Positions 3,639 to 59,017 of a DNA stretch of 64,000 nucleotides are shown in pieces; within the stretch, counting starts at the first letter, position 1; each line of letters begins with the position of its first letter. Source of the stretch: Cloeon dipterum (lineage: Eukaryota > Arthropoda > Insecta > Ephemeroptera > Baetidae); NCBI RefSeq assembly GCF_949628265.1, contig NC_088786.1:42801681-42865680 (forward strand), read 5' to 3'. Both the position numbers and the translations under genes were made by a program. Under the pieces are notes generated by a model. It did no database searches and had not been told where the DNA came from. It worked only from the letters and a program-made list of their open reading frames with translations.

Positions 3639-4261
3639 TGTGGAGAGCCCAATCGGAACGTTCTTCCTTCAAAAGCAGCTCGTCTAAGAATGAACATCTT
3701 TGTCAGCAGATATAATGAAGACAAATTCTTGATATTTCTCTAAGGTTTGAAATTTCGACCCGAATTCCAAGAATCGTTCTGATCCACAATAATTTATATG
3801 GAAAAATTGTATCCTTTTTAACCTTTATTCTAAAGAATGTCATAAATTATGCTTCCTTTTTGTTCCGAGAATGATTGATGGAAATTTTTTTATATCTTTC
3901 AGTCAAAATTAATACTTTTTTAAGTAAAAAATAGAAGGCATCCTCGAAAATTAAAATTGTAATCATATTTTCTAAGATTTAAGTCTAGCCATTTGATTTT
4001 TACCGTTTTCAATCGGTGTGAATATTTTATGGTGCGTTCTGTTTAATTCTAATTCTTCAGACATTTAGAAAATTTATTACTTAAATAAATAGAATTTTAA
4101 TGAATGAAAAGTTAGGGTTACCAAGCCCCTGCAACATTGACCTGTTTTCGGTTCAAAGAGGATATCAAAATAAAAACAGCATTTTCTGGACTGTTAATGT
4201 TTGGCTTTCCTATTTCTCAGAATGATACGAGCGGAATTATCTTGCTTATTTTTAAGTTTAT

Positions 4262-5333
4262 CGCAAACTTTGCTCTATTAAAGAATTTAGGGATGCCAGC
4301 TATTGTACCTCCAATAGCAGAGGAAAACACAAGATTCTAATCCAGATTAATCCTAATTAATAGAAGATGGGTTCGGTGCAGACCTCGGTTCCGTGGAAAT
4401 AACAAATATGCTCACTTTGAAAAGGCGAAAAAAATGAATAATATTGGCGAATACTTTGGATAAAAAGAAAATATATTCGTCGGATTTATTACACAAATTA
4501 CGAAACCTATGGTGATGTGCGTAGCGATAATGTGTAGCGACAAATATATAAAAAAATAGGAAAGGGTTAGTAAAGGGGTAACAAGTTTAGATATTGAAAT
4601 AATTGCGCTTATCAAAAAATTCTACTCAACAATTCTTCTATCGGTAGGGTCTCTAATCACAAGTCTATCTTGTCGTCGTTCTTCTCACAGCTCAAAGGGT
4701 ATGGTCAGTTTGGCGCATGCAGAGTGGAATTGGGTTGGTCGTTCCACGCGGACACAATTGGCGATGCCCGTACCTCTCCTGTACGATGCCCAGGAAGGCG
4801 CTGCAGGCCGTCGGTGTTAGAAATACCAAACGGCCCCGCAGGGCACCTGAGGGTAGCGAATTAAATAGTCAGATAATGGCCCGATAAATTAATGTGCACA
4901 AAAGTCACATAAATAAGGTAGAAGCCCAAATAAAAACTCACTTACGTTTGAAATTTCAAAAGGGAGTTAAGAAATCCGATCGGACAAAGATCGTTGGTTG
5001 GCAAATAGCACACCAGCTTGCGTGCTATGCCTTTTGGTGGTTTTCGGGCCTCTGACTATTAAATCACCGTGAGTGCAACGCATTGCACTCCCCTCATGCG
5101 CCTGCGAGGTATCCCAAATATCGCAATAATTGGGGTTCTCAGCATGCGGTAAATGATTTTTACATGACTTTAATTTTGTCGTTTGACTCACATAAAATTA
5201 AGATAAGCGCAATTTGAAGAAAAGGGAGATAGTAAGAGAGAAAGAAAATTACAAAAATTAAAATAAATCACTCGTCTGTTTGAATAATTTACGTGTTAAT
5301 TTCGTCAAATGCCAATTAATCAATACAACGTTA
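4262..5333. mobile_element. 1.07 kb insertion with 9 bp target duplication, left arm only
   Basis: The right arm shows the empty site near 16,565-16,590. In the left arm the site is split, and TAAGTTTAT is present on both sides (4253-4261 and 5334-5342). I see no terminal inverted repeats and no LTR-like TG...CA ends. A GC-richer core (about 4,660-4,870) contains only short open frames that I do not recognise. Type undetermined; a 9 bp duplication would fit a Mutator-like or non-LTR source. Confidence 0.75.
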
Positions 5334-5494
5334 TAAGTTTATTAGACACATTTGTTTCTATCGACAATTTACAGGCACGGAAATCATCCATACCTTTCAG
5401 TTACATGACATAAATGCATGTCACGTGACCTTTTTCGATTCTATTGGCAATCATGAATTGTGCTTAAATTTATTCCTTATCGCGTCGTTTCCTG

Positions 5495-6856
5495 TTAATC
5501 AATCTCGATAATTTGGTGGCTTGGGTATTTTTGTTTGTGTTTCCAAAATTTCAAGTAGGCCATGCTTCTTTTTGGAATGCACGAGCGGCATTCCCACTTT
5601 TCATCGTGGATGCGATTTACGTGTTGCTTCAGCTGTTGCTCCGTCGCAAATGACTTTGGACAAAACTCGCAATTTTGTGAGTTAAGCTCAGCTGGAAAAT
5701 GCTGACACATGATGTGTTTTTTTAAATCTTCCTTTCTGTACGTAAAGTATTCACAAAAATCGCAATAGTACACCTTCAGTGGCTTTTCCTCATACCCATC
5801 GGGCTTTGCTTTACGTACCAATGTTTTGACTCCGTCGATGTTTTCAATTATGAATACCAAGTCCTCTTCTTGTTGGTTTTTTGAATTTAGTGCTTCAAAC
5901 CTGTGCCAATTGCGGTGTCGATAAATGTTGCCGACGTCCTCTTTTTTGCACACCTTGCAGACTCCCTTGTTTCTATATTTATCCTGATTCTCAGTTGCTT
6001 TTCTTTTACTGTTTCTGGGTTTTTTCTTCGGCTGCGCTGAATCGGAATTCAGTTTCCTCTTCAGCTTCTTGCCTGAACGCCCACTTGTAGAAGGCTCTGA
6101 AATGTCAAAATTTCATAAATAAATAATAATAATTACGCCAAAAAATGCTTTGAATTTTTTGTACACATTTTCATACATCAAGTGCCTTTTTTGAGGCTTG
6201 AAAATTCTTTCTTGACAGAGAAATGCCACGAAAATATGCCTCACCAGGTTCAACACCGCTATTAGCTAAGTTTTCCCATCCAACTTCTGTGGCGTCTGGA
6301 ATTTGTGCTGGAATCTCATCAACATTTTGGCTCTCAGAAACTCGTTCTAAAATTTTATTTTCACGTGATTAATAACAAAGTCAAATAAATTACTTAACAG
6401 ACGAGCTTACCTGGATCAGGACCAACTCGAAAGCAAGATGAACCTGTCGATTCCGAATTTTCTTCCAATTCCTTGCGATTTTCATTGGCGTCCAAGACAA
6501 TCTCGTTTTCCCGCTTTTTGATCTGTTCGCCTTGCAACTCAGTGTCAAAGTTGCTGAGTGATGCCGAAGTTTCTTTCTTCCTTAGCAGATGGTCCTCCGT
6601 TTGCTCTTCGGCTGCAATTCAACTCAGGATAATTAGATACTGAATCGGAAAGCACATTTACCAAAGAATTTCGGATTGGTTTGTTCCGTCTCACTGGCTT
6701 CCGGGGCAGAAATGCTTGCGCTGAAAATTTGGACTCATTATAATTGTTGGGACACAGGTATTTGTGCAGAACTAATTTTTACCTTTGACTCGAACCTGAG
6801 AAGCAGCAGGCAACGCAGATGCGTTTTTTGCACTTGGCTCCTCTCGGACAATTCAT
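5495..6856 (-). CDS. C2H2 zinc-finger protein, inner copy, left arm
   Basis: Five exons with matching phases: 6856-6783, 6720-6662, 6611-6411, 6346-6245 and 6096-5495, total 1,038 nt, 345 aa. The N-terminus is Cys/Lys-rich (MNCPRGAKCKKR, then CVACC), followed by a Ser/Glu-rich acidic middle, a basic stretch like a nuclear localisation signal (KKLKRK, PKKKPR) and C-terminal fingers: CKVC with paired His; YYCDFCEYF with paired His; CEFCPKSF with paired His. The finger exon resembles the last exon of the outer gene, so the two are paralogues. The mirror copy at 15,064-16,415 has identical exon lengths except for 6 nt (two codons) in the last exon. Presumed nuclear; target unknown. Confidence 0.78.
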
Positions 6857-7626
6857 TATTTAATTTTTTTCTGGAGTATAGTGGAATAATTGTTGCTCGA
6901 GTGAACGCACCAAGTACAATGAACAAGACGCTCTTTTCTTTCCTTTTTGTACGCTTAGGGGGAGCTTCTCCCTTGAGCTAGGGTTGCGCGCCATTTTTTA
7001 ATTCAGGCCGTTATTCCCGCTGTACAAACATGCTTCGTGAACTTTAAAATTCTTTTTTTTGGAATTGAATCCATTTTGCAGACGATTAATAATAACTTTT
7101 TCTTAGTTTTGAAGATGAGCCACTTAATTTTTTTTTAATTTATATAAGAGAATTAATTTACAGGAGCTAGAGGTTTGAGCCGCGGGATTTAAGTCAACGG
7201 CTGGCACGGCTGAGAATATTTGAAACGTGAATTTTGATCATGCTTAGCGTCCCGAAGGGGAGGAAGACGTTGCTCTCCTTCACTTTTTAATTTTCACCCT
7301 TTTTCACCGGCGCAGAGACTGGCAGAGACCTCTAGATTCTAGATAATGAAATGGAAAGGAGAGACGCGAGTGCGTGAAAATGAAACGCCTGCAAAAGTCG
7401 CAAGTACGCAACCGGCAAGACACGAATATTTTTAATTATTTAATTTTCTGATAATTAATCAAAAGAAATAAGTTAATTAATCACAAACGTTTTTCACTTA
7501 GAAATTTCAAGCTTTTAAAGATTTAATTGCAGCAAAATGAAGGATAAAACACTTTTAGTTTATAGAAACCAATTTTAAATTTTCATTTCAAGCAGATAAA
7601 CATTTATTTTTGACAACAAAAAATGT

Positions 7627-8346
7627 TTAATAGCAGCTTTTGGGCAGTTGGCAAATGAAGCGGTGGACGTGTGTGCAGCTGTCGGACTGGCTCTTGAGGA
7701 ATGCGCACACGTTTTTCGCCCTGTTGACGAATGCTGGTGCTCCGTCGACCCAGAGGACGCTGCTTTTGGCCAGCACCTCGCCGTCGCCCCACCAGAACGC
7801 GCCCGACGAGCTTGCGCCGTCCGACGCCGCCATCGCCCACACCCACCAGCACGCTTCTGCTATTAATTATAATTATATTAATTGGGGAGTTATCTCGGGG
7901 AAATTTAAACTCACGGCTTGTGACCTTCTCGAAGAAAAGTACGAGTCTTCCACGGTCTTCGGCGCTGCCAGGTGCATTTTGTTGCTTTCGCAGAAGCTTC
8001 TCGCTTTAAACCAATCCACCTGGCGAATTTTATATTGAAATTTGATCTGTTTCAGGTTCTAAATAAAATAAAAACCCACTTCAAAAGCGGAGAAAAAGTA
8101 TTTCTTGCCGTTTGCCAAGGTGGTCAAATTCAGTGCTAGATTTTTAATACAAATTTTATCCGAGGCGAGTGGAATTTGAATTATTGTTTACGATTTGGTT
8201 CGCACTGCAGTTTTTTTTTTGCCAGCTGCAAGAGTGCTTTTTTAAATTAAAACATAAATCTTTTAATATAGAATTTATTTACCTGTGAAATGAATTGCAT
8301 CTGCAGACACAATTCCCAAAAACAGAGCAACTAGGAGAATCCGCAT
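7627..8346 (-). pseudogene. Small secreted C-type lectin gene, probably damaged
   Basis: Exon 1 (from 8346) encodes a clean signal peptide (MRILLVALFLGIVSADA) and ends at a GT donor near 8282. Later exons carry typical CTLD pieces: GKKYFFSAFE around 8,080-8,120; DWFKARSFCESNKMHLA in 8046-7915; and the terminal exon 7856-7627 with FWWGDGEVLA, HRFICQLP and a stop. The frame breaks once in the second exon (a stop after CGTAAACAA) and once before the donor at 7914, where the needed phase is off by one base. Either this is a pseudogene or the assembly has small indels. The terminal exon is intact and duplicated at 14,063-14,292. Confidence 0.6.
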
Positions 8347-8808
8347 TTTTAAACTCTAGAAATTTTAAATTAGATTAGAGACGAAAAAAGGGGCAAAGAG
8401 GACTTACCAAGAAAGCAGCAGGAGGAAAATGATGATTTAAAGCTGCTTCTCTGTCTTTTTATCGCTTGAGTTTGAAGTGAAAAGTCAAAGATAAAAGGCG
8501 TAAATTAAAAAAATATGCTCGACCTTTCCCTTGATGTTCGTCGCTTTTGGCTTGTTTGTTTATCTCAATTATCAAAAGATCAACTAAAGTTCACTGCTAC
8601 GCTAAAACCGCTAAAAACAAGTAGTGCTCTAATTAACTTGAGGAAAATTTCAAACATCTTGTTCATTTGAATCCCTAAGTCCCTAAAAATAATTCTATAC
8701 TGTCGGTCGTGGAGAAAATGGAACGTTTTTTTATTTCCCCAATTTTATTTTGCCAGCACAACCAAAATGAGCAGTTTCAAATTAGTGCGTATACCAAAAT
8801 TACTAAAT

Positions 8809-11800
8809 TTACAGTTCGCAAAGAGTAAATGCTTCATCAGTGTCAGCAGAGCTTGCAAAAAAATAAGAATCTTGCAATGTGTTTTGGATATTCAGCGTCA
8901 TTATTTCCTTTTCTGGGTTTTTCTCAATGTCCGGGTGCCACTTCCACATTGAGAAATTCAGCGGCTCTCTGGACGTGCACCATCGGAAGCCGGTGACCGT
9001 TCCTTTCCTCGAGGCCGACGTCCATATATCGGCAGGTCTAGTTAATCCTCCTGAAAAAATATTTTAGACCGTTCATCGGTTTAATTTTGAAAACCTGCCG
9101 AGGGGTGAGTCCACAATGCACTGCAGTTCCGCCAGTGTCTCGATCGAAACTATTTTAACCCCGTAAGTGCAACACCAAGATCCGGCACCGTCGAATGAAA
9201 ACTTTTTGTGTTTTAATTTTTTTAGTCAAATTTCTGTTTTTGAACTAAAGTTTCAGTTGTTACGCGTTCCGAACCCGCCAGCAAATAGCGCTTGTTACAA
9301 ATAGTCAGAACAGTTCCAAACGCAGCTATAAAAAAGTAAGCTGCAATAAGAAATATTACAATTTCGTTTCGCGAATTTACTGTTTTTGTTCAAATACTCG
9401 TCGCTCCAGCGAGGCTGACAGATTTTAATTTTTCTCATAACTTTTTCTGATTTATTGGTTAACTCACGTGAATTATGCATTTATGATCAACGCATTCGCC
9501 CAGAATTGGTTGCAGAGGCGATTTTTCCTAGTTACAAAATGTCACGTGAGATTAAAAAAAAATAATGATTTGATTTATCGCAACTGCTGTGCTGTTGAAT
9601 TCTATTGCCGTGATCACGTTCGCCACTAGGTTTGGCGCCTTTTCCTGGCCACACTGGAAAACGTTGGCTATCGTGTCACACTCGTCCATGCCCTCTGCAC
9701 GAAGAAAAAACGTTTAAACATAAATTTTCTTCGATTATTTGTTTGTAAATATTTTAAGTTTTGAAAATTTGTTTTGCACTGCAGTGTGATAAATGAAATA
9801 CACACCGCGGGGGGCCGGATTCACGTGACGGTCAGATATGGCGGGAAAATTGAATACTTTATGTGTTGTTAATTCTGAACAAACAGCTGATTAGCCCGGT
9901 AATTGGCGAATCGACCGTTAGATGGCACGTCAGACCAATGGAAATGTAACAAAAATACGCGGGAACGAAATTATTGGGTCGGCACGCTTCTTTTTCGACG
10001 CTTCCGATTGGCTGCTGGACTGTCTCCTGATTGGCCTCCATTATTTCGACGAAATTTTGACTCCTGGCCGGCGGGAACCAACACAGGTCGCAATCCAGCC
10101 CCTGGTGGGAATAACGAGTGCGCAGAAGGTTTCGATTTTGGTCACGCTTGCGCAGTGATGCGTTTTGACCTCTCAAAGATATTTAGAAGCGATCTCATCA
10201 TACTGCGCATGATTGAGATGCGCACAAGTTTACTGCGCAGCTTCGAAACGGGCGTATAATCAAACAACTATAAATTTCGACGCCATATTGACTTCTGACC
10301 GGCGGAAAAACCAAATCAGCTCGCAACCCAGCCCCCGGTGTAATTAAAAACTTGCTGGATTTGGAGCACTCGTCGATAGCTTGTAAATTTGTGTTCAGTT
10401 GTGTGACGTCATCGGCGGGTGATGTGATTTTGGCCAAATTTATCAGGCGCTCGTCCACAACGCGACCATTATGTACCTTTAACATGGATTTTATATCAAA
10501 TTTGAAAACTTTTCACCCGCATTATATAAAAATTAACATGAGTATTTTTGTAAATATTTACAATTCCTCCACTCTCGCCCAAACATTGCAAGAAACACTG
10601 CAATGCATGCAACAAAAAATCGATCAATGAAGATTTAAGACTTTTATTCGAGTCAAACCTTGGTCCTTGCGCTGAAAGATGAGCTGTTGAAAATGTTGTC
10701 CTGCTCATCTGCATTGAAATTAATTATTTGTCTGCTTGAAACCAAGCTAAATTTTGATTTTAACCGATTGACACGTTCAAATTGGCTGCGCACTCGTCTT
10801 TCATGGCCTCTCCTTTGCTCGTAGAATTTCTCGTGTCCCGGATCTGCTCTCAAAATTCACCAGTTGGATAAGGCCACCAACGTATATTTTCGTAATAAAA
10901 TTTATTTTAAAGGCCCTTCCGCCGCGATTTCAGACTCAATCCTCCCTGACTGTGCGTTCTCCACTTAATTTTCTTTCTTTTGACGTGCTGAAAAGCAAAA
11001 TCGGTTCAGCCAATCACTGTAGAATCGTGAAAATCTATCGTTAGAAATAAAAAATATTTTCCAACGATTCTACGGCGAATGGCCGGACTGATTTTGGTTT
11101 TCAGCACGTCAAAAGAAAGAACGCACATAGTGTCTGAAATCGCAGCAGAAGTGCCGGAAAATTAAATTTATTACGAAAGTTTCCGCGGTGGCGCCATCTG
11201 TTGGAGGCTTGAAACACAACTGGTGTGTATAAAACGCTGAACTTACTTCACAAATAAATCGCAGAGCCAGTCGGCAGTCTGCAGTCATCAGTGTCGTGTT
11301 TTTGCTGCTGACATCCGCTGCGAGGCAGTGGCCGCCGACGCGAGGCTCGTTTCTGGCCCACATCGCATTCCTGACCACTTTGTTCTCAGCGCACCAGCCG
11401 AATGCTCCGGGGCAACCGTTATCTGTGCCCCAAGTCCAAAATTTCGCTTCGAGGGCAGCGCTATCATCCCCTTTTATGATTTCGTCAAAAGATTTGACAC
11501 ATAATTGTCATAAACTGCATTTCGTGACGGTCTTTAAATTATTTACCAAGAATTTGGGACAAGACAGAGTATTTGTAAGCGAAATCCAGGCTCAAAAGCT
11601 TCATTCCTATAGAACAACAGGTCTTTCTCGCGTCATTCCACTGCAAAAAGAATAAAAACGAAATGTTATTTTCTTCTTTATTTTTCTAAGGAACAATTAA
11701 CTGTTCGAAATTCATGGCTAAACATGAAAATACGGAAATTCCTGCTCTTCCAAAGTCCGTACTGCGCAGGATCTGTACATATTTTAATTAACTGTTTTTA

Positions 11801-12975
11801 TTTTCGCATCTTTAAGAAACGCCCGCGCACTTGTAAGATACTTGGTGACGTTGTCAAGTCCACGAGAGAACAAAGCATCCTTTTGTGAAAACAGGAAAGA
11901 TTAAAATGGTCCGTTAATGAATATATTTTACATTTTTGGTGCAATTTTCCTGAGGGCAGGCGGGAGCGAAACAACGTGCAGCTGGCGTCGTCGTTTCCTC
12001 AATTTCCCAATTTGAACAAAAAAATATAAACAATAGAGACAAAAATTCTTATTTGGTTAAATAAATTACAGGACGAGGAGATGTAGATGATGGAATTGTG
12101 CTTATTTCAACGCTCATCGAACTGTCAGCGTTCGTCGCAACCATATTATGTGTCGAGATGAAAATTTCCGTGCTTTCGTCTGCGTGAGCATTAAGGTTTT
12201 ATTGGTCACTAGAAAAATCCAGAATAGTAAAATCTAATAACTATAAGAGAGCTCGCAGGGCATTGGTTTTTTCCTTAATTAAAAAATTCCTATTTAATTT
12301 AAAAAAAATAATTTCTGAAGTTATTCGTTTCCTAACGCTTGCCGGATTTATAAATGAGTCATTTTGCACAGATTTATCAATTAAAATTTATTTTTTAATT
12401 CAATAAATGATTGAGATGTTCCAATAAATAAATAAACTGTCCATTGTTTTTTATTTGCCTTTGAAAATTTTCACTTTCAAACAAAAAATTGATGTCTATA
12501 TATACATACGAATGATCACTGTTTCCGGTTGTAATTCAGCTTTTGGATCGTCAGAACGGTTTTCAACGCCTTCATCCGAGCTTTCGGTCGAAAATTTTGA
12601 GGAGGAAATGAAATTCCGTTTGGTTGATTGTGTGCTAATTGTTCGATTTGCTCTTTTCAGAGGCAATTTCGAGCAGGACTTTCGTCCACAGCATTTTATG
12701 ATGATCTTCCGATTACCTAGATGTGAATTTCATGCAATTATCAACCCCATAGCTCGTTGAGGCGATGCACAAACCTCTGTACCTGATCATTTCAACCTGA
12801 CAAACACGTTAAATTATTTTTAGAAAGCAAAAAGCAGTAATTTACAAAATGATAAAGAATTATTTAAATTTTACTATTTATAATATATGAAAAATGGATT
12901 CGATACCTGTTCAATGCAGATGGCTAGAAATGTTAGCGCAATCAACAGAGAATGGCGCGTCCATTGCGGGTCCAT
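8809..12975 (-). CDS. Secreted CTLD-OBP-CTLD fusion protein (gene 1)
   Basis: Nineteen exons read in frame with agreeing phases give 588 aa: 12975-12907, 12796-12775, 12716-12510, 12179-12070, 11997-11932, 11879-11831, 11761-11724, 11640-11547, 11470-11247, 10843-10765, 10708-10659, 10597-10562, 10476-10356, 9694-9585, 9527-9468, 9414-9381, 9325-9264, 9201-9095, 9037-8809. Order: signal peptide (1-23); IIKCCGRKSC motif; Ser/Thr-rich stalk; Cys motif CFAPACPQENC; CTLD1 (about 160-293, with TCCSIGMKLL, FWTWG, FGWC, RFICE); OBP domain (about 310-425); CTLD2 (about 450-588, with WCCTYGVKI, IWTSA, FRWC, LCEL at the end). The OBP cysteines follow C-x25-C-x3-C-x42-C-x8-C-x8-C, the classical pattern. 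Expected to be extracellular; ligand unknown. A MITE lies in the intron before the OBP exons, and the intron at 10,355 seems to use a GC donor. AATAAA near 8,745 could be the poly(A) signal. Confidence 0.86.
10047..10340. repeat. Pair of ~60 bp direct repeats in an intron of gene 1
   Basis: 10,047-10,107 and 10,278-10,340 share a diverged unit that runs from CGACG through GACCGGCGG-like sequence to CAGCCCC(T/C)GGTG. The 170 bp between them contains several TGCGCA-like words. They lie in the intron separating the exons for OBP cysteines 4 and 5. They could be degenerate terminal repeats of an old insertion; I cannot assign a family. Confidence 0.45.
10868..11210. mobile_element. Hairpin MITE, copy in intron of gene 1
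   Basis: Same family as the elements at 2,855-3,227 and 19,704-20,071: inner inverted repeats around CCGCGATTTCAGA, shared GATTTTGGTTTTCAG-like inner segments and an outer CCAACAGATGGCG end. It is the most diverged of the three and lies between the CTLD1 and OBP exons. Confidence 0.65.
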
Positions 12976-14062
12976 TTCAGAGCAGAATGTCGCAATTAGA
13001 GCGGCAGACCGGCTGGACAGGATGCAGACACGTTCGTGCCACGAGTTGTGTTTCGCGCCTCTCTCAATTTTAATGGCAAAAATTGATAGCGTTTCTCACT
13101 TCCTGTCGACCGTGCCTCTGCTCTCGTTCGTAACTGCGTAAAATATCGAAAATTATTTGTGCAAAAATTTTAAAATATAGTGCAAGTAATTTACTTTGGA
13201 ATAAAACAATTCAGACAACAACAGAAATTGAGTAAAAAAGGGTCATTTAAAATATTTTTCAAAGATTTTGCCTTCAAAGAGACGCGTGTGGTGGTTTTTC
13301 CCTTTATTCAGCGACCATTAAAAATCTCTGTGACTTTAAAAGCCGACGCTGCTGGGAATATGGAATGACGCACGTACATCCATCCATCAAATCAATTGCG
13401 GAAGTTCCAGCTGTCACAGCAGGCGCGCAAAATCAGATCCAGAGTTTGAAATATCAAGTTAGTAGAAATTATTTGAAAAATTTGTCAATTTGAAACACGA
13501 CCAAATTCCACGGTGTCACAGAATTTCAAAACTTAAGAGCAATAAACAAAAACATGCTCAAATAAAATAGTTTAATTAAATTGAGACAATGCAGGTTGAG
13601 ACTTCATAAATGTTTTCAGAAATTGCAAAATAATTAAAATAACGCACCCCACCATTAAGTCCCAATTTTTTAAAAAATTTTTTGCACATTTGGAATCCTC
13701 AATTATTTAAAAGCAGTTCCTGCGCATTGGCATCAAATAAAATTAATTGTGAATTTTCAAATTTCTTTAGGTTGCATGCATGTTTTGTCGGTGCTCAGTT
13801 TTGCACGTCTTTTTCACGCGTTTTTCCAGTGTGTCGACGCCGACGGAAGTGAATTTCCCGTGCTCCATATTTTTGCCCTTTGTAGCGCGGTGATAGCAAG
13901 GAATGCTGGAAAAATAACAGGTGTGCTCGGTAAAATCCAACTTTTAGACTTTTTCAACTACGAAACACCAATATTCCGAGCATGAAAGAGGATTCCTGAC
14001 GAGCTACGCCGTGAGTTTAAATTTCCCCCCCCCCCCAATTAATAAATAATAATTAATAGCAG

Positions 14063-14292
14063 AAGCGTGCTGGTGGGTGTGGGCCGTGTCGGCGTCGGAC
14101 GGCGCGCGCGTGTCGGGCGAGTTCTGGTGGGGCGACGGCGAGGTGCTGGCCGAAAACAGCGCCCTCTGGTCCGGCGGATACCCGAACGACGCCAAAAAGG
14201 GCAAAAACGTGTGCGTCTACGTCAAGAGCCAGTCCGACAGCTGCACACACGTCCACCGCTTCATTTGCCAACTGCCCAAAAGCTGCTATTAA
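14063..14292 (+). pseudogene. Orphan CTLD terminal exon, right arm
   Basis: Mirror copy of the last exon of the small CTLD gene, open for its full 230 nt, with the preceding AG acceptor and its GT-side intron partly conserved. It encodes a tryptophan-rich CTLD core (CWWVWA, EFWWGDGE, RFICQLP, then stop). The palindrome ends within the upstream intron, so no signal peptide or N-terminal CTLD exon is found on this side and an independent product is unlikely. Confidence 0.7.
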
Positions 14293-15063
14293 ACATTTTT
14301 TTGTCAAAAATAAATGATTATCTGCTTGAAATGAAAATTTAAAATTTGTTTCTATAAACTAAAAGTGATTTTCCTTCATTTTGCTGCAATTAAATCTTTA
14401 AAAGCTGAAAATTTCTAAGTAAAAAACGTGTGTGATTAATTAACTTATTCCTTTTGATTAATTATCAGAAAATTAAATAATTTAAAACATTCGTGTCTTG
14501 CCGGTTGCGTGTTTGCGACTTTTGCTGGCGTTTCATTTTCACGCACTCGCGTCTCTCCTTTCCATTTCATTATCTAGAATCTAGAGGTCTCTGCCAGTCT
14601 CTGCGCCGGGGAAAAAGGGTGAAAATTAAGAAGTGCAGGAGAACAGCGTCTACCTCCCCTTCGGGCCGTTAAGCATGATCAAAATTCACGTTTCAAATAT
14701 TCTTAGCCGTGCCAGCCGTTGACTTAAATCCCGAGGCTGAGACCTCTAGCTGGTAAATTAATTCTCTTATATAAATTAAAAAAATTAAGTGGCTCATCTT
14801 CAAAGCTAAGAAAAAACTTATTATTAACCCTCTGCACAATGGGTTCAATTGAAAAAAAAATATAATTTTAAGTTCACGAAGCATGTTTGTACAGCGGGAG
14901 TAACGGCCTGAATTAAAAAAAGGCGCGCAACCCTAGCTCAAGGGAGAAGCTCCCCCTAAGCGTACAAAAAGGAAAGAAAAGAGCGTCTTTTTCATTGTAC
15001 TACTTGGTGCGTTCACTCGAACAACAATTATTCCACTTAACCCTGCAGATTTTAACTCAAGGA

Positions 15064-16415
15064 ATGAATTGTCCGAGAGGAGCCAAGTGCAAAAAACGCA
15101 TCTGCGTTGCCTGCTGCTTCTCAGGTTCGAGTCAAAGGTAAAAATTAGTTCTCCACAAATCCCCATTTCCCGAAAATTAGGATTCCAAATTTTCAGCGCA
15201 AGCATTTCTGCCCCGGAAGCCAGTGAGACGGAACGAACCAATCCGAAATTCTTAGGTAAATGTGCTTTCCGATTCAGTATCTAATTAACCTGAGTTGAAT
15301 TACAGCCGAAGAGCAAACGGAGGACCATCTGCTGAGGAAGAAAGAAATTTCGGCATCACTCAGCAGCTTTGACACTGAGTTGCAAGGCGAACAGATCAAA
15401 AAGCGGGAAAACGAGATTGTCTTGGACGCCAATGAAAATCGCAAGGAATTGGAAGAAAATTCGGAATCGACAGGTTCATCTTGCTTTCGAGTTGGTCCTG
15501 ATCCAGGTAAGCTCGTCTGTTAAGTAATTTATTTGACTTTGTTATTAATCACGTGAAAATAAAATTTTAGAACGAGTTTCTGAGAGCCAAAATGTTGATG
15601 AGATTCCAGCACAAATTCCAGACGCCACAGAAGTTGGATGGGAAAACTTAGCTAATAGCGGCGTTGAACCTGGTAAGGCATATTTTCGTGGCATTTCTCT
15701 GTCAAGAAAGAATTTTCAAGCCTCAAAAAGGCACTTGATGTATGAAAATGTGTACAAAAAATTCAAAGCATTTTTTGGCGTAATTATTATTATATATTTA
15801 TGAAATTTTGACATTTCAGAGCCTTCTACAAGTGGGCGTTCAGGCAAGAAGCTGAAGAGGAAACTGAATTCCGATTCAGCGCAGCCGAAGAAAAAACCCA
15901 GAAACAGTAAAAGAAAAGCAACTGAGAATCAGGATAAATATAGAAACAAGGGAGTCTGCAAGGTGTGCAAAAAAGAGGACGTCAGCAACATTTATCGACA
16001 CCGCAATTGGCACAGGTTTGAAGCACTAAATTCAAAAAACCAACAGGAAGGGGACTTGATATTCAAAATTGAAATCATCGACGGAGTCAAAACATTGGAA
16101 CGTAAAGCAAAGCCCGATGGGTACGAGGAAACGCCACTGAAGCTGTACTATTGCGATTTTTGTGAATACTTTACGTACACAAAAGGAGATTTAAAAAAAC
16201 ACGGAAAGCATCTTCAAGCTGGCCCAAAAACAATCGAATGCAAGCATTGTCCAAAGTTATTTTCAACGGAGCGACTGCTGAAGCATCACGTATATAACAT
16301 CCACGATGAAAAGTGGGAATGCCGCTCGTGCATTCCAAAAAGAAGCATGGCCTACTTGAAATTTTGGAAACACAAACAAAAATACCCAAGCCACGAAATT
16401 ATCGAGATTGATTAA
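15064..16415 (+). CDS. C2H2 zinc-finger protein, inner copy, right arm
   Basis: Five exons, all phases consistent: 15064-15137, 15197-15255, 15306-15506, 15571-15672, 15820-16415; 1,032 nt, 343 aa. Same layout as the left copy: Cys/Lys-rich start, acidic Ser/Glu-rich linker, basic motif, then C-terminal Cys/His fingers. It differs most in the last two fingers, where the left copy has SQNCEFCPKSF and this one has TIECKHCPKLF, and in the spacing to the first His pair (this copy has a shorter KHGKH). The reading frame survives in both arms despite substitutions, which suggests both are or were recently functional. Confidence 0.78.
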
Positions 16416-17356
16416 CAGCAAACGACGCGATAAGGAATAAATTTAAGCACAATTCATGATTGCCAATAGAATCGAAAAAGGTCACGTGACATGCATTTAT
16501 GTCATGTAACTGAAAGGTATGGATGATTTCCTTGCCTGTAAATTGTCGATAGAAACAAATGTGTCTAATAAACTTAAAAAGCAAGATAATTCCGCTCGTA
16601 TCATTCTGAGAAATAGGAAAGCCAAACATTAACAGGCCAGAAAATGCTGTTTTTATTTTGATATCCTCTTTGAACCGAAAACAGGTCAATGTTGCAGGGG
16701 CTTGGTAACCTTAACTTTTCATTCATTAAAATTCTATTTATTTAAGTAATAAATTTTCTAAATGTCTGAAGAATTAGAATTAAACAGAACGCACCATAAA
16801 ATATTTACACCGATTACAAACGGTAAAAATTAACTTAAATCTGAGAAAATATGATTACAATTTTAATTTTCGAGGATGCCTTCTATTTTTTACTTAAAAA
16901 AGTATTAATTTTGACTGAAAGATATACAAAAATTTCCATCAATCATTCTCGGAACAAAAAGGAAGCATAATTTATGACATTCTTTAGAATAAAGGTTAAA
17001 AAGGATACAATTTTTCTACATAAATTATTTTGGATCAGAACGATTCTTGGAATTCGGGTCGAAATTTCAAACCTTAGAGAAATATCAAGAATTTATCTTC
17101 ATTATATCTGCTGACAAAGATGTTCATTCTTAGACGAGCTGCTTTTGAAGGAAGAACGTTCCGATTGGGCTCTCCACAATGGAAGCAAAAAATATTTTTT
17201 GCGAAATATGCGGCGAACGCGAGGCGAAAAACGGAGACGATTGCCTCGAATGTTTTATGTAAGACACTATGTAACGGGTTAATTGTTTCCAGATAAATTA
17301 ACCAGAGATATTATTGTTCCAGCTTGCATCGGTTGCGTGTTGAGAATCCGCCACCT

Positions 17357-19468
17357 CCCTGCAAGAAAAAAAATATCACTGTGACGTCATATTGATGTCA
17401 CATGATATCACCCGGGTGACGTCATATTGACGTCACTTAATGTCCGTCACAATTGGATCATATTGATATCATTATGATATCACGACCAAAAAATTTTCCC
17501 CAAATGCTATTATTTTAATAGCATTTTCAAAACTGACAGTTTTTGGATCCGTATTCCGAGCTCCAACCTGGAGTGACGTCAATATGACGTCATATTGACG
17601 TCACTTGAGGTGATATCTTGACCAAAAAATTTTCCCCAGAAAATTTTCTTTAAATCATTTTAATAGCATTTTCAACCTCAAGTTTTAAAAATGCAATAAA
17701 AATAATTTTCTGGGAAAAATTTTTTGGTCGTGATATCATAATGATGTCAATATGATCCCATTGTGACGGACATTTAGTGACGTCAATTTGACGTCACCCT
17801 GGTGATATCAATATGACATCACAGTTATATTTTTTCCTGGAAAATTCAATTAATTTTTTGATTAGGAACGAAGAACACGCATATGAATTATTTTTTATTG
17901 TCACATACATCGCATACAATATAATTCTGAGTGTAAGGAATCTCCACCGTTATGAGCGTCAGCGGAAAAAGTAGCCCCGTCACGCTTGCCACTTTTATTT
18001 TAATAATCTTAATCTCCCAGCCATCGCAAATTATTTGCGTTTCCAACCAATCGAAAACATGGAGTTTTTTCCATTTTATAAAATAAAAATATTTACTGAT
18101 TTCCTTATTCAAGCATTAAATTTTCCATCCCTGCAATGACGTCACTGTGACATCACTTTGATATCACTCGCGTCACAATTGCACTTAAGTGCAAGAAAAA
18201 TGATGTCAGTGACGTGAAAATGACGAAAAATTTTGTATTTCCAAAAGGCTTTAAATTTTTATTTTGAACAATTAAAAACAAGTTTTGTTGGTTTTCCATT
18301 GAATTTTGAGCAAATTTGGAAAATTTCCCATTCCTTCAATGACGTCACTGTGACATCACTGTGATATCACTCACGTCACGATTGCACTTCCGAAGAGACG
18401 AGGAATGAAAATGATGTCAAAATGATATCATATTGACATACTCACGGTGACCAAACGTTTTAATATTTTTCCGTTGATATACCAAAGAAATCAATATAAT
18501 ATCTCTAAAATTTTCCAATTTTGGAAAAATTAAAAAAATTTAAAAATTAAAAAAAAAATTTTGTCATTTTTTCATACTTTTTTTAATTATATTATTGCAA
18601 ATGGGGCCTACAATTCAGGTGTGCCGGGTCACGATTCGATGTGATGTCAAAGTGATGTCAAAGTGACGTCAAAGTGATATCAATATGATATCAATATGAC
18701 ATGCTCAGCGTGATGATTTTTTGAAATTCTGGGGATGCGCGTGATATCAATGTGACATCAATGTGATGTCCCAAAAGAATTTGAAACAAAAAAATTATGA
18801 AATTAATTAATTAATTTAAATGTTAACGATCAGCAAAGATTTCAAATTTTTTTGTTTCAAATTCTTTTGGGACATCACATTGATGTCACATTGATATCAC
18901 GCGCATCCCCAGAATTTCAAAAAATCATCACGCTGAGCATGTCATATTGATATCACTTTGACGTCACTTTGACGTCACTTTGACGTCACTTTGACATCAC
19001 TTTGACATCACATCGAATCGTGACCCGGCACACCTGAATTGTAGGCCCCATTTGCAATAATATAATTTAAAAAAGTATGAAAAAATGACAAAAAATATTT
19101 TTTTGATTTTTAAATTTTTTGAATTTTTTCCAAAATTGGAAAATTTTAGAGATATTATATTGATTTCTTTGGTATATCAACGGAAAAATATTAAAACGTT
19201 TGGTCACCGTGGGTATGTCAATATGATATCATTTTGACATCATTTTCATTCCTCGTCTCTTCGGGAGTGCAACCGTGACGTGAGTGATATCACAGTGATG
19301 TCACAGTGACGTCATTGAAGGAATGTGAAAATTTTCCAAATTTGCTCAAAATTCAATGGAAAACCAACAAAACTTGTTTTTAGTTGTTCAAAATCAAAAT
19401 TTAAAGCCTTTTGAAAATACAAAATTTTTCGTCATTTTCACGTCACTGACATCATTTTTCTTGCAGGG
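17357..19468. mobile_element. Double-hairpin foldback element with TGAYRTCA palindrome arrays
   Basis: The ends are perfect inverted repeats of 14 bp (CCCTGCAAGAAAAA). The left arm of the palindrome shows the uninterrupted target near 3,460; CT (possibly CTT) is duplicated. Inside are two large hairpins, about 17,357-17,850 (centre near 17,603) and about 18,190-19,465 (centre near 18,828, arms of roughly 620 bp). Both are packed with TGACGTCA, TGATGTCA, TGACATCA and TGATATCA at short, irregular spacing. A 270 bp single-copy spacer separates the hairpins and holds a 74-codon open frame on the minus strand that I do not recognise. No transposase seen, so non-autonomous. Confidence 0.85.
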
Positions 19469-54504: not shown

Positions 54505-57500
54505 TCACAGTTGCTCGCATATAAACGATTTTAAAGGTGACGACCAATTAGTAAAATTGTAGAACATTTCGTGGATGTTCGCAGTTGGCAGGTTGACCAA
54601 AAGCAGTTTGAGAAGGTTCACGTGGAACGTGACGACGCATTCGGTGCACGGATACCTGAGTATTCCGGTTGAGTAGCCGTAGATATCCTGAGGCAACAGC
54701 TTGCGGCTGCGACACCACACCTCGCGCGTCTGGTCGATCGATTCAGTTTCGCCCAAAAGTATGTTGAATGGGGTTTGTTTGTCTGCAAAGGCGAAATTAA
54801 AAGTTTCTTAATGTCACCTCCATCTTCGTATTTATTTGACAGCAAAGAATAATTTATTTACTTGATATTTTCAGGGCCAATTGCAGGTCTGCCAGGGTCG
54901 CTGGTTCAAAGAGTTTCATTCCAAGAGCGCAGCAATGATTGAACGCTGCAATCGCATGCTGAACACAGATTATTCAACTCGATCAAAAGGTCGAAAACAT
55001 ATTTGTGAAATCTCCCACCGTGTTGCCAACGGTACCGAAAAAGTAGGTCCTTCCGTTCACAATCACCCTACTGCCGAATTGGTCTGCGTGGAAAATTAAT
55101 TCGAATTTTGGCTTTTCACAATATAATCTAATTACCTTTCCCCTGGCTGTTGAAGGTATTGATGACCGTCGCCTTCAATTTAAATAAAATTATTCAAAGA
55201 ATTTAAAAAAATAATGCATACATTCGAAGTACACGGATAGCGATCAGACATCCAGCAACTTCGACGCTTTGGAACACAAGGAAGGGGAGGGGGTTGCTGT
55301 AAAAATAATTTTAATCCCAGAAAAAATAAAATCTTTTGAATACAGCGACCACTGATGACGCATTGTCACTTTGAGCACTATTATTGACGATTTTCGCGAC
55401 CAAATCTGGCTCATTTTTCAGACCGCATTTGTATGTTTCGTAGGCAACCACGCACTCGTCGTCAGATTCTATTAAATCATAATATAACATATTTTTAAAT
55501 AATTATCAAACTTTTGCTGCTGCATCCGTCATAAGCAATGAATCCCTGTTCCATCTTGACGGGATCGTCTTCAGCGGCGATTTCTACTTGACGCAGCATT
55601 TCAATGCTGCTCACTCCGCCGGATTTAAACTGTTAAAATAATATTAAAAATGGTCCAACGTGGATTTTCCCCTCAAATACCATTCCAACCTCGGTGCCAA
55701 CGCATTTCAAGAAGCACTATACGATTAAAAACTAAATTATATTAAACCAAAACATAAATTTTGTACCGCGCACCTTCAGATTTAACGAGACATTTGCTGA
55801 ACTTAAACCACTATCGTTCGAAAGCAAGTCAATTTCATCTAAAAAAAATTGTCAGCATTTTTAAATATAAAAATAATTAAAATCTGTACAGCTGCTAATA
55901 TTCCAAATTTCTGCGCATTCAGATTGGATCTGAAGCTGAGACGAGGCCGCACTTCTCCCAACATCGCACAAAAAATTCTTTTCCTCGGCGCAATCGGCGG
56001 TGGCGAGAAGCGAAGATTCGTTTCTCGCCTCGAGATAAACGCAATTTAGGCCTTTCACCGGGTGTCCCTCCTTCCACCTGAGCTCAGGGTTGACGAAATC
56101 GCGGTCTAGGGTGCACCACCTGAAATTTGAGGTGCACCCCAGGTTCGTTCCGGAAAGCCAGTAATCGCCCACGGTCAAAGACGCGAATTCTTCGAATTAA
56201 ATTTAATTTAAAAATTAAATAAAAGGCTTCCGTTCTACTTGTCATCAGTTTGGAAATGCAATTCAATTTCCCAGACGACTCAATAGGCGTTAAATTCAAT
56301 CCAATAGCGCAGCACCGATCCCTGGCATTCTTCCAGGAAGACTATTATTTGATCAATTGCAGGCGGAGATGCGAATTTATAAAATTTGAAACCTTAGTTT
56401 TGGTGTAGGTCAAAATACTCCGGCCACAGCTATCGTACCACTCGCCGTATGAGGGGTAATCTGTATCGAAATATATATTTATTAAAATTTCGAACAAAAT
56501 ATCCTCACCTATAAGAAAGTTATTACTCGCGTTGAAAAGTTTGACCTTTTTAATTTCAAAAATTAAATGCACTAAATTAAATTCAACTCAACGCACGTCT
56601 CGCCGGCATTTATTCAAAGGGCAAGAGGCAACACACGCTGGCTTTTGGGTCACAGTGAGCTGAGTCTGAAATAAAAGGGTTTCATGCATATTTTGCGAAA
56701 TTGCATGATGATTTCATACCTTGCAAGCGTAGATGTATCTGTTGGTGCAGTTCCTGTCGGTCATGATGGCGGCCGTCGCGTTCAAAACGAAGCGAAAATG
56801 CACGCAGCTCTCGTTTCCGTTTTTGTTGTCGGGCTGGCCGCGCTCCCAAGTCAGACTCGGGCTGAAAACCGTGGGTCCGTCGGCTTTGCACCACGACCAA
56901 TGACCCAAAGGAGCACCCTTCCTCGTTCCAGAAGTCCAGTAATTGAAATTCATCTTCCAGTCGGCTGGAATAGGTTTTTATTTGTGGCTTTTTTGATAAT
57001 CTTAAGCACAAACTGGCGTTTTTTCCAATTGTCAAGCTGGACAGGCCCTGTTGCTCGGCCGCATCCTCGAGATTGAGCGCCTCCATTCCCAAAGCGCAGC
57101 ATTGCTGCCAGCTGGACGACCAGGACATCTATTATGTCAAGAAATAATTAATTTCTTGAACTTTAATGATTAATTAAATTTATTAACCGGCTTGTTTCCC
57201 AAAAGATACGTGAAGTTGCCAACGTTGAGCCACACTCCGTAAGAGTTTTTGTCTAAAATAACCAATTTTGAAAACCCCATTAAGATCTTTAAACCGTGTA
57301 CCAATTAAATTTCCAGAAGCGTCGAATAAGGAAACCTATGAAATTGAAAATAATTTAGAAATTTATTTATAAATAATCCTGAGATCGCACGTTTTTGTTG
57401 CACTGTTTGGGACAATCGACGGAAAAGTGGCAAATGTAGGGCAGACTCTCTTCACAATTCCTGAGCACCATCCCCTTTTGGGGGGCGGTTGAGAGGTCAA

Positions 57501-59017
57501 GGGCCAGACAGCGGTTGAGGGTGGACGGAGCGGCAGTGGTCGGCATCCAAAATTGCGTCGCGGAAACCAATTCCGTGGAAATGTTGAAGCCGATGGAGCA
57601 CCAAGCGAATTTGTGCTCCAAATCGCAGTTGAGGTCTTCGTTTGAGCCGCTCGTCCAAAAAGTTCCAACAGCTGATTCCATGAGTTAATAAATTTACGTC
57701 CAAAAATTTGATCAAACCTGTCAAAGAGGCCAGACAGTTCAGCTCGTCGAGAGAAGTGACGGCCAAAAGCGCTATTCCCATCGACTCGCATCGCAAAGTC
57801 GCTTCGTTTCTCGTCACCTTGTGATTTTTTTTAATTTATTTTAGTTTTAAATTTTTACAGGAATTTTTACAGCCATGTTTGAGAGGAAATAATTTTTGGT
57901 ACACATAGCGGCTGCCAACTGCGTGGAACCATCCGCTGCTAATGAGTGAATTTTGTTGAATTTTTGAATGGGCCATTTTAATTCTTTCATTTGACCAAGT
58001 TTAAAATTTTCAACAATTACAAACAGGCTTAATTTGGCCAAAAATAATATCATGTATTTTGAAAATTGTTGATTATTGATACAAAAATCCCTTCAAAATA
58101 AATTCTTCAACAAAATGCTTAAATTTTAATTAACATTACTTACGCGGAGCAGGTTTTATTATTGTTGGAGATTTCTTTTAAAGAGTGGTTAATATTAAAA
58201 TATCTAGCTTATCTGAAGGATAATCGTACCAATCGGTAGTTTTTGTAATCCGAACACGTTAAATGACACGGCGCGGGCTTAATTCATTTTCAAAGGTTTG
58301 ATTTAGAAAATTGTAGTTACTAAAACATTTCAACTCACCGTGGTGGTGGTTTTTGCTGTTGTTTCTTCAATTAAATTAGAGGGTGATTTTAGATCGTGCG
58401 GGATTATTGTCGTGATTGCAGAGAAATACGTCGTAGTCGTGATTGAATAAATATTTGTCGTCGGGATTGTAGAAATATCGGTAACACCTCTATCTGAGGA
58501 CAAAAAAGTCGAAACGGTCGTCAAATCAGCACTAACTTGTCCATTTTCTGTGTGATCAGCCACGGCAAAAGTCTCTCCAGGATTTTGTGCTGTTGATTTG
58601 TCCTCTCAATTGTTACAAATAAATGATAAATTATTTTACTCGTTTTTTCTGCAGTAATTGCTGAGAGCGGGGTAGAAATGTTGTTCTGCTCGTGGAATTA
58701 ATTTTATTTTGTTTTGGAAATATTTAAATACCAAAATACATACTTGATTTACTCCGAGCAGCTTGGTAGAAGAAGTTCTCCTTTCTGTTGGACTGCAAGT
58801 TTTGAATCCGCAGCACTTGACGATGTATTTCCTCCGCATTGGATGATTTGAATGACCGGAATTTCCTTTCATTTTCTTGGAATTCTTTTTTCTGCTCTGT
58901 AAAGGAGATTGAAATTATTCAAATTCTTATTAACGTTCGGCATATAATTACTTGCGGTAGAGCCTGTCCGATGCTGAAGAGAACCATTGAAACGAGGCAC
59001 ACGTTCCACAAATTCAT
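54505..59017 (-). CDS. Secreted multi-CTLD-OBP fusion protein (gene 2)
   Basis: Starts with a signal peptide (59017-58952, MNLWNVCLVSMVLFSIGQ). Exon 58896-58744 carries YIVKCCGFKTCS, like the KCCGRKSC motif of gene 1, and 58602-58339 a Thr/Ser-rich stalk. Then CTLD A (about 57,900-57,390: TLRCESMGIALL, TFWTSGSNED, FAWCSIG, YICHF), CTLD B (57,330-56,700: QQCCALGMEAL, NYWTSGTRKG, WSWCKAD, YIYACK), CTLD C (56,560-55,930: DRCCAIGLNL, DYWLSGTNLGC, FRWCTLD, FLCDV), an OBP domain (about 55,950-55,340: CAEIWNISS; a 27 nt exon with CFLKC; DGCSSK; DDECVVAYETYKC) and CTLD D (55,300-54,505: CCALGMKLF, EVWCRSRKL, SFICEQL, stop). OBP spacing is x3, about x40, x8, x8, the classical pattern. Introns are as short as about 46 nt. 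Some small exons before CTLD A are uncertain. Confidence 0.84.

Follow-up and report, generated by a model that had tools for sequence, protein, structure and literature searches.

In this study, we analyzed a stretch of 64,000 nucleotides of the genome of the mayfly Cloeon dipterum (contig NC_088786.1, positions 42,801,681 to 42,865,680; hereafter the window), and found two genes whose proteins combine C-type lectin-like domains (CTLDs) with an odorant-binding protein (OBP) domain (Table 1). For gene 1, the minus strand was read from 13,600 to 8,400 and splice sites and reading frame were used to join the exons, which gave a model of 602 residues with no internal stop, in agreement with the nineteen in-frame exons from a signal peptide to the end of a CTLD that the initial annotation had proposed. 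The encoded protein contains, in order, a signal peptide, a CCGRKSC motif, a Ser/Thr-rich stretch, a CTLD, a six-cysteine OBP domain and another CTLD. Most of its introns (16 of 18) were of the GT-AG type, and those after exons 13 and 18 were GC-AG. The splice sites at exons 2-3, 17 and 18-19 were preferred because they matched the residues of related proteins; a version of exons 2 and 3 with a 40-nt intron was dropped in favor of sites encoding residues present in these relatives.

The two CTLDs of gene 1 corresponded to those designated CTLD-B and CTLD-C in the family. Both chromosomal copies inspected, L019 and L020, contained exons for a further domain, CTLD-A, which were absent from gene 1: the matches in window positions 4,001-18,000 were confined to two at chance level and to cross-matches with the CTLDs of gene 1 itself. 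The longest introns, 13 (9,695-10,355; with a GC donor) and 9 (10,844-11,246), appeared by eye to be enlarged by transposable-element-like sequence. Gene 1 was also flanked by an inverted segmental duplication (window positions 4,000-7,887 and 14,032-16,826), whose arms were 86-98% complementary and each contained an apparent CTLD fragment and a zinc-finger-like ORF; the C2H2 matches of the left-arm ORF were under the Pfam cut-offs. Scans of the window with Rfam and for tRNAs gave no matches.

The second gene, identified by tblastn of the relatives at 59.0-54.5 kb on the same strand, was a divergent member of the family, mostly about 22-46% identical in the longer alignments. Since the end of its CTLD-B and the first OBP helix lie in one exon, the fusion in gene 2 needs no splicing assumption, and its core matched Pfam PBP_GOBP with 40.9 bits. 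The introns of the OBP domain occupied identical places and phases in the two genes (phase 1 eight residues past cysteine 1, phase 0 ahead of cysteine 2, phase 0 after a 36-nt exon, and phase 1 three residues past cysteine 4), an agreement that would fit one fusion followed by duplication.

Table 1. Features of the two CTLD-OBP genes in the window (positions relative to its first nucleotide).
Feature	Position	Strand	Evidence
Gene 1, 19-exon CTLD-OBP-CTLD secreted protein	8809..12975	-	Exon chain; Pfam; 15 homologs; dN/dS 0.29 versus paralog
Gene 1 exon 1, signal peptide	12907..12975	-	Hydrophobic N-terminus, by hydropathy
Gene 1 exons 2-3, CCGRKSC motif and start of Ser/Thr-rich region	12510..12796	-	Motif common to family
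Gene 1 exon 4, mucin-like Ser/Thr-rich stretch	12070..12179	-	Translation, composition
Gene 1 intron 4 (72 nt); CTLD-A exons at the corresponding place in relatives	11998..12069	-	Comparison with relatives
Gene 1 exons 5-9, CTLD-B, the more N-terminal of its two CTLDs	11247..11997	-	Pfam Lectin_C; profile match to solved CTLDs
Gene 1 exons 10-14, OBP domain, C-x25-C-x3-C-x43-C-x8-C-x8-C	9585..10843	-	Pfam PBP_GOBP; solved OBPs; cysteine spacing
Gene 1 exons 15-19, second CTLD (CTLD-C)	8809..9527	-	Sub-threshold Pfam; profile matches; model of a relative
Gene 2, signal peptide - CCGFKTC - Thr-rich - CTLD0 - CTLD-A - CTLD-B - OBP - CTLD-C	54505..59017	-	Exons of the N-terminal half only partly joined
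Gene 2 fused exon, uninterrupted frame from the CTLD-B end into the first OBP helix with cysteine 1	55890..56189	-	
Gene 2, other four OBP exons, cysteines 2-6	55350..55838	-	
Gene 2 CTLD-C	54505..55296	-	Translation; weak alignment to family

The domain assignments of gene 1 were then compared with Pfam. The whole protein matched PBP_GOBP (PF01395) with 42.3 bits and the OBP domain alone with 46.5 bits (cut-off 22), and Lectin_C (PF00059) was matched with 41.8 bits, so that the proposal of a complete OBP domain between two CTLDs held on both the exon chain and the profile matches. The domain lies behind a CTLD at residues about 305-436 of 602, which includes the interval of about 310-425 for which a PBP_GOBP match had been predicted, and its six cysteines showed the classical spacing, as had been claimed. 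It departs from the small, single-domain form with its own signal peptide that defines insect OBPs, because it sits inside a 602-residue protein. PBP_GOBP scored above the cut-off in all five family sequences scanned (gene 1, the gene 2 core, P0005, P0012 and P0018). A CTLD, recognized by a Lectin_C match or a CTLD fold, was likewise present in gene 1. In the predicted model of the relative P0004, seven helices were found at 222-339 (pLDDT by block 52-77); when a relative's model was compared with known structures, CTLDs filled the 50 matches listed, to the exclusion of any OBP chain, so that this comparison bears on the CTLD part of the model. EPN or QPD together with WND are the calcium/sugar motifs of sugar-binding C-type lectins, and neither was present in CTLD-B of gene 1; in the CTLD-B of relatives, EPN or QPD occurred in 6 of 19 and a WD pair in 1 of 19. 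Thus, the CTLD-OBP-CTLD architecture of the initial annotation stood, whereas the carbohydrate recognition suggested along with it became less certain, the CTLD ahead of the OBP domain having none of these motifs.

A search of the conceptual gene 1 protein against 5.8 billion proteins, with candidates of 0.55-1.75 times the query length, gave 15 matches, all from C. dipterum or Neocloeon triangulifer, the nearest being 75% identical over 76% of the query and 81% identical over 53%. No close protein corresponding to gene 1 itself was found among database candidates in this length range, though others from the same assembly were there; gene 1 may lack an annotation, may have been classed as a pseudogene, or may be annotated at a very different length. 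Searching long proteins with the OBP region of P0005 yielded 18 matches, again solely from these two genera. Combined, the searches gave 19 annotated proteins, from Cloeon and Neocloeon, that share the CTLD-OBP junction. A pattern search located the six-cysteine OBP pattern directly after the end of a CTLD in all 19, with a spacing of 25-26/3/41-43/8/8 (P0008 had one extra cysteine), and precomputed Pfam annotation listed PF01395 for 17 (not P0008 and P0016) and PF00059 for 18 (not P0009).

Several relatives had gene models incomplete at one or both ends, and the fuller models comprised a signal peptide, a CCGRKSC-like motif, a Ser/Thr-rich stretch, CTLD-A, CTLD-B, the OBP domain and CTLD-C, the longest proteins reaching about 920 residues. 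By hydropathy, all 20 family proteins scanned were free of membrane-like stretches beyond residue 40. The mucin-like stretch, included in 15 of the 20, consisted of 29-48% Ser and Thr, and family proteins contained 10-19 N-glycosylation sequons. Two C. dipterum proteins, P0003 and P0016, had additional cysteine-rich sequence at the N-terminus, resembling zinc-finger-associated domains, and are probably run-on gene models.

We also searched for close standalone OBPs with a profile of the OBP domain only, and obtained 23 matches. P0020 and P0022 were rejected as standalone OBPs, since they look like shortened fusions: the former begins within CTLD-B and the latter continues into CTLD-C. The other 21 (P0021 and P0023-P0042) came from contigs under 6 kb and resemble the OBP part; among the 16 of these that were read, P0027, P0033 and P0040 continue into a CTLD-C-like linker. 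Judging from such sequence matches, the family is probably carried by other species too.

To obtain the distribution of the fusion in the C. dipterum genome, the 100-residue fused exon of gene 2 was used as a query. Among the 150 matches listed, 104 extended past OBP cysteine 1 (residue 92; query end 98-100), and no stop codon occurred in any of them. The other 46 ended at residue 86 or earlier: 12 were gene-1-type loci, gene 1 included, in which the match ends at an intron or at divergence; one further locus (C1:41.343 Mb) had an OBP exon downstream; and no OBP was seen at the remaining 33, which may be CTLD-only copies. Many CTLD matches ending ahead of the OBP part clustered at C2:0.6-2.1 Mb, and these copies are possibly relatives that predate the acquisition of the OBP domain. 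With the gene-1-type OBP as query, 25 OBP loci were found, with CTLD-B upstream in 23, CTLD-C downstream in 21, both in 20 and neither in one (C2:10.690 Mb). Sixteen gene-1-type loci lay away from the 104, giving a total of about 120 fused loci among the matches listed; the total is approximate because the CTLD of one of the 16 (C1:17.069 Mb) may belong to a neighbor. In a search with a longer query, 82 of 103 fused matches listed were located at C1 37-43 Mb and C4 29-36 Mb.

In all of the best 30 fused-exon loci listed, gene 2 among them, four further OBP exons followed within 1.5 kb downstream, and a CTLD-A exon was present upstream in 29. A search with OBP exons placed a same-strand CTLD exon within 2.5 kb upstream in every one of the 150 matches listed of 180, which represent 86 loci. 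CTLD-C was examined in three gene-2-type loci (gene 2, L026 and L027); the latter two, on pieces of 6.0 and 5.5 kb, contained, in this order, an extra CTLD, CTLD-A, CTLD-B, the OBP domain and some or all of CTLD-C. Searched exon by exon, PF01395 gave one match in the C. dipterum genome. As a contrast, the 3.2-kb locus of a conventional OBP exon (C3:3.625 Mb) had no family match, and a search with that exon found only itself. The 104 one-exon junctions, together with the 19 proteins from two genera, support the earlier claim that the OBP exons belong to the same gene as the CTLDs. The finding is thus larger than the initial annotation stated: a big, lineage-specific and partly annotated family rather than a single odd protein.

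Pooled dN/dS values were 0.22 for the fused exon (101 unsaturated pairs of 435, from 30 loci), 0.23 for the linker between CTLD-B and the OBP domain, and 0.19 for the linker plus the start of the OBP domain. Between gene 1 and the copy near C4:29.478 Mb, dN/dS was 0.29 over 457 codons (CTLD-B, 0.27; OBP, 0.27; CTLD-C, 0.33). Therefore, the genes of this family, gene 1 included, appear to be maintained by purifying selection.

Each of the two domain types has known counterparts. The mayfly fusion shares the cysteine pattern and the above-cut-off Pfam match with classical six-cysteine insect OBPs, and the best match of the family profile among solved OBPs was 5dic (E 2e-9); known OBPs are small and single-domain, whereas the mayfly domain is part of a much longer chain. 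The best matches of the CTLD-B and CTLD-C profiles were secreted mosquito lectins (mosGCTL-1, E 1.1e-12, and mosGCTL-6, E 2.3e-7, respectively), whose matched solved chains have 151-198 residues and no OBP domain. The CTLD-B profile also matched the mannose receptor, mannose receptor 2/Endo180 and lymphocyte antigen 75, which have several CTLDs per chain; in contrast to these receptors, the mayfly proteins have an OBP domain and no membrane-like stretch. Among the papers listed in searches of the open-access literature of PubMed Central, we found no description of an OBP-CTLD fusion, in keeping with the initial annotation, which knew of no described family of this kind; the available part of a paper on mites (PMC6275457) shows no such fusion and states that mites lack OBPs. 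Thus, both domain types are known, and their combination and its scale are undescribed within the literature searched.

Our preferred interpretation, to which we assign a probability of roughly 60%, is that a single CTLD-OBP fusion event was followed by duplication, and that the CTLDs and the mucin-like stretch would retain the protein after secretion at a mucus or glycan-bearing surface. Because the protein would be held there, its OBP pocket, thus immobilized, could bind small hydrophobic molecules in the water, serving capture, buffering or presentation, as opposed to acting as a freely diffusing carrier; duplication would then have diversified ligand and surface specificities.

Another explanation, which we consider unlikely, is that the OBP domain has lost the ability to bind small molecules and persists only within an immune or matrix lectin, where it would serve as a structural spacer or as a protein-protein module. 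CTLD families that are large and duplicate rapidly typically belong to immune and surface proteins, the lectin motifs are variable in this family, and the two proteins without precomputed PF01395 would fit such a role; against it, the six cysteines and their spacing are conserved in all 19 relatives and PBP_GOBP exceeded its cut-off in all five sequences scanned. For the gene-2 type, the principal mechanistic alternative is a polyprotein, in which a precursor cut between CTLD-B and the OBP domain would free the OBP domain (or OBP-CTLD-C) to act as a regular soluble carrier. Cleavage might occur between the domains, as an adjacent basic pair was present in 27 of 30 gene-2-type linkers. However, none of these 30 contained a furin-type RxK/RR site, none of 19 gene-1-type linkers had a basic pair (the single RK listed, in P0014, falls within the CTLD), and the linker itself is under purifying selection, which makes this explanation rather improbable. 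Finally, it is hardly credible that two adjacent genes were wrongly joined by the earlier reading and by automatic annotation: in gene 1, a 403-nt intron with inverted-repeat-like sequence (by eye) does separate exon 9 from exon 10, but the junction is contained in a single exon at 104 places, gene 2 among them, and is common to Cloeon and Neocloeon, and no signal-peptide-like start was seen by eye ahead of the OBP domain in three-frame translation, so that such an artefact is contradicted for gene 2 and unlikely for gene 1.

The fused family bears on the known OBP repertoire of this species. According to the available text of Almeida et al. (2020; PMC7250882), C. dipterum has 191 OBPs (167 complete), a larger set than any other known at the time; of 152 clustered OBPs, 121 belonged mostly to four nymphal or pre-nymphal expression groups; and the gills expressed 82 of the 167, with 25 being gill-specific. 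The OBP-expressing gill cells stain with a neuronal marker, favoring the chemosensory reading of the authors, and the word "lectin" is absent from the main text. The 191-OBP expansion and the fused family agree in species, in domain and in their very large number, and on number and species many of the 191 may be lectin-mucin-OBP fusions. We give even odds to the stronger proposal that lineage-specific mucin-lectin-OBP fusions make up most of this repertoire, in which case the OBP-positive gill cells may secrete mucus or matrix and bear an anchored coat that binds chemicals, instead of, or besides, acting as olfactory-type support cells.

OBP counts inform the debate on insect chemical sensing and adaptation to land, in which the mayfly count stands out as an exception; should fusions account for much of the 191, both this count and the chemosensory view of the gills need re-examination. 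The fusion also provides a natural case, in an aquatic animal, of an OBP pocket attached to a putative surface-binding scaffold, and it raises the questions of which ligands the fused OBP domains bind and where the protein stays. For the heptageniid mayfly Parafronurus youi, the accessible portion of the source (PMC13205551) gives 10 OBPs of 135-252 residues, and the fusion family may therefore be limited to Baetidae or to part of the order.
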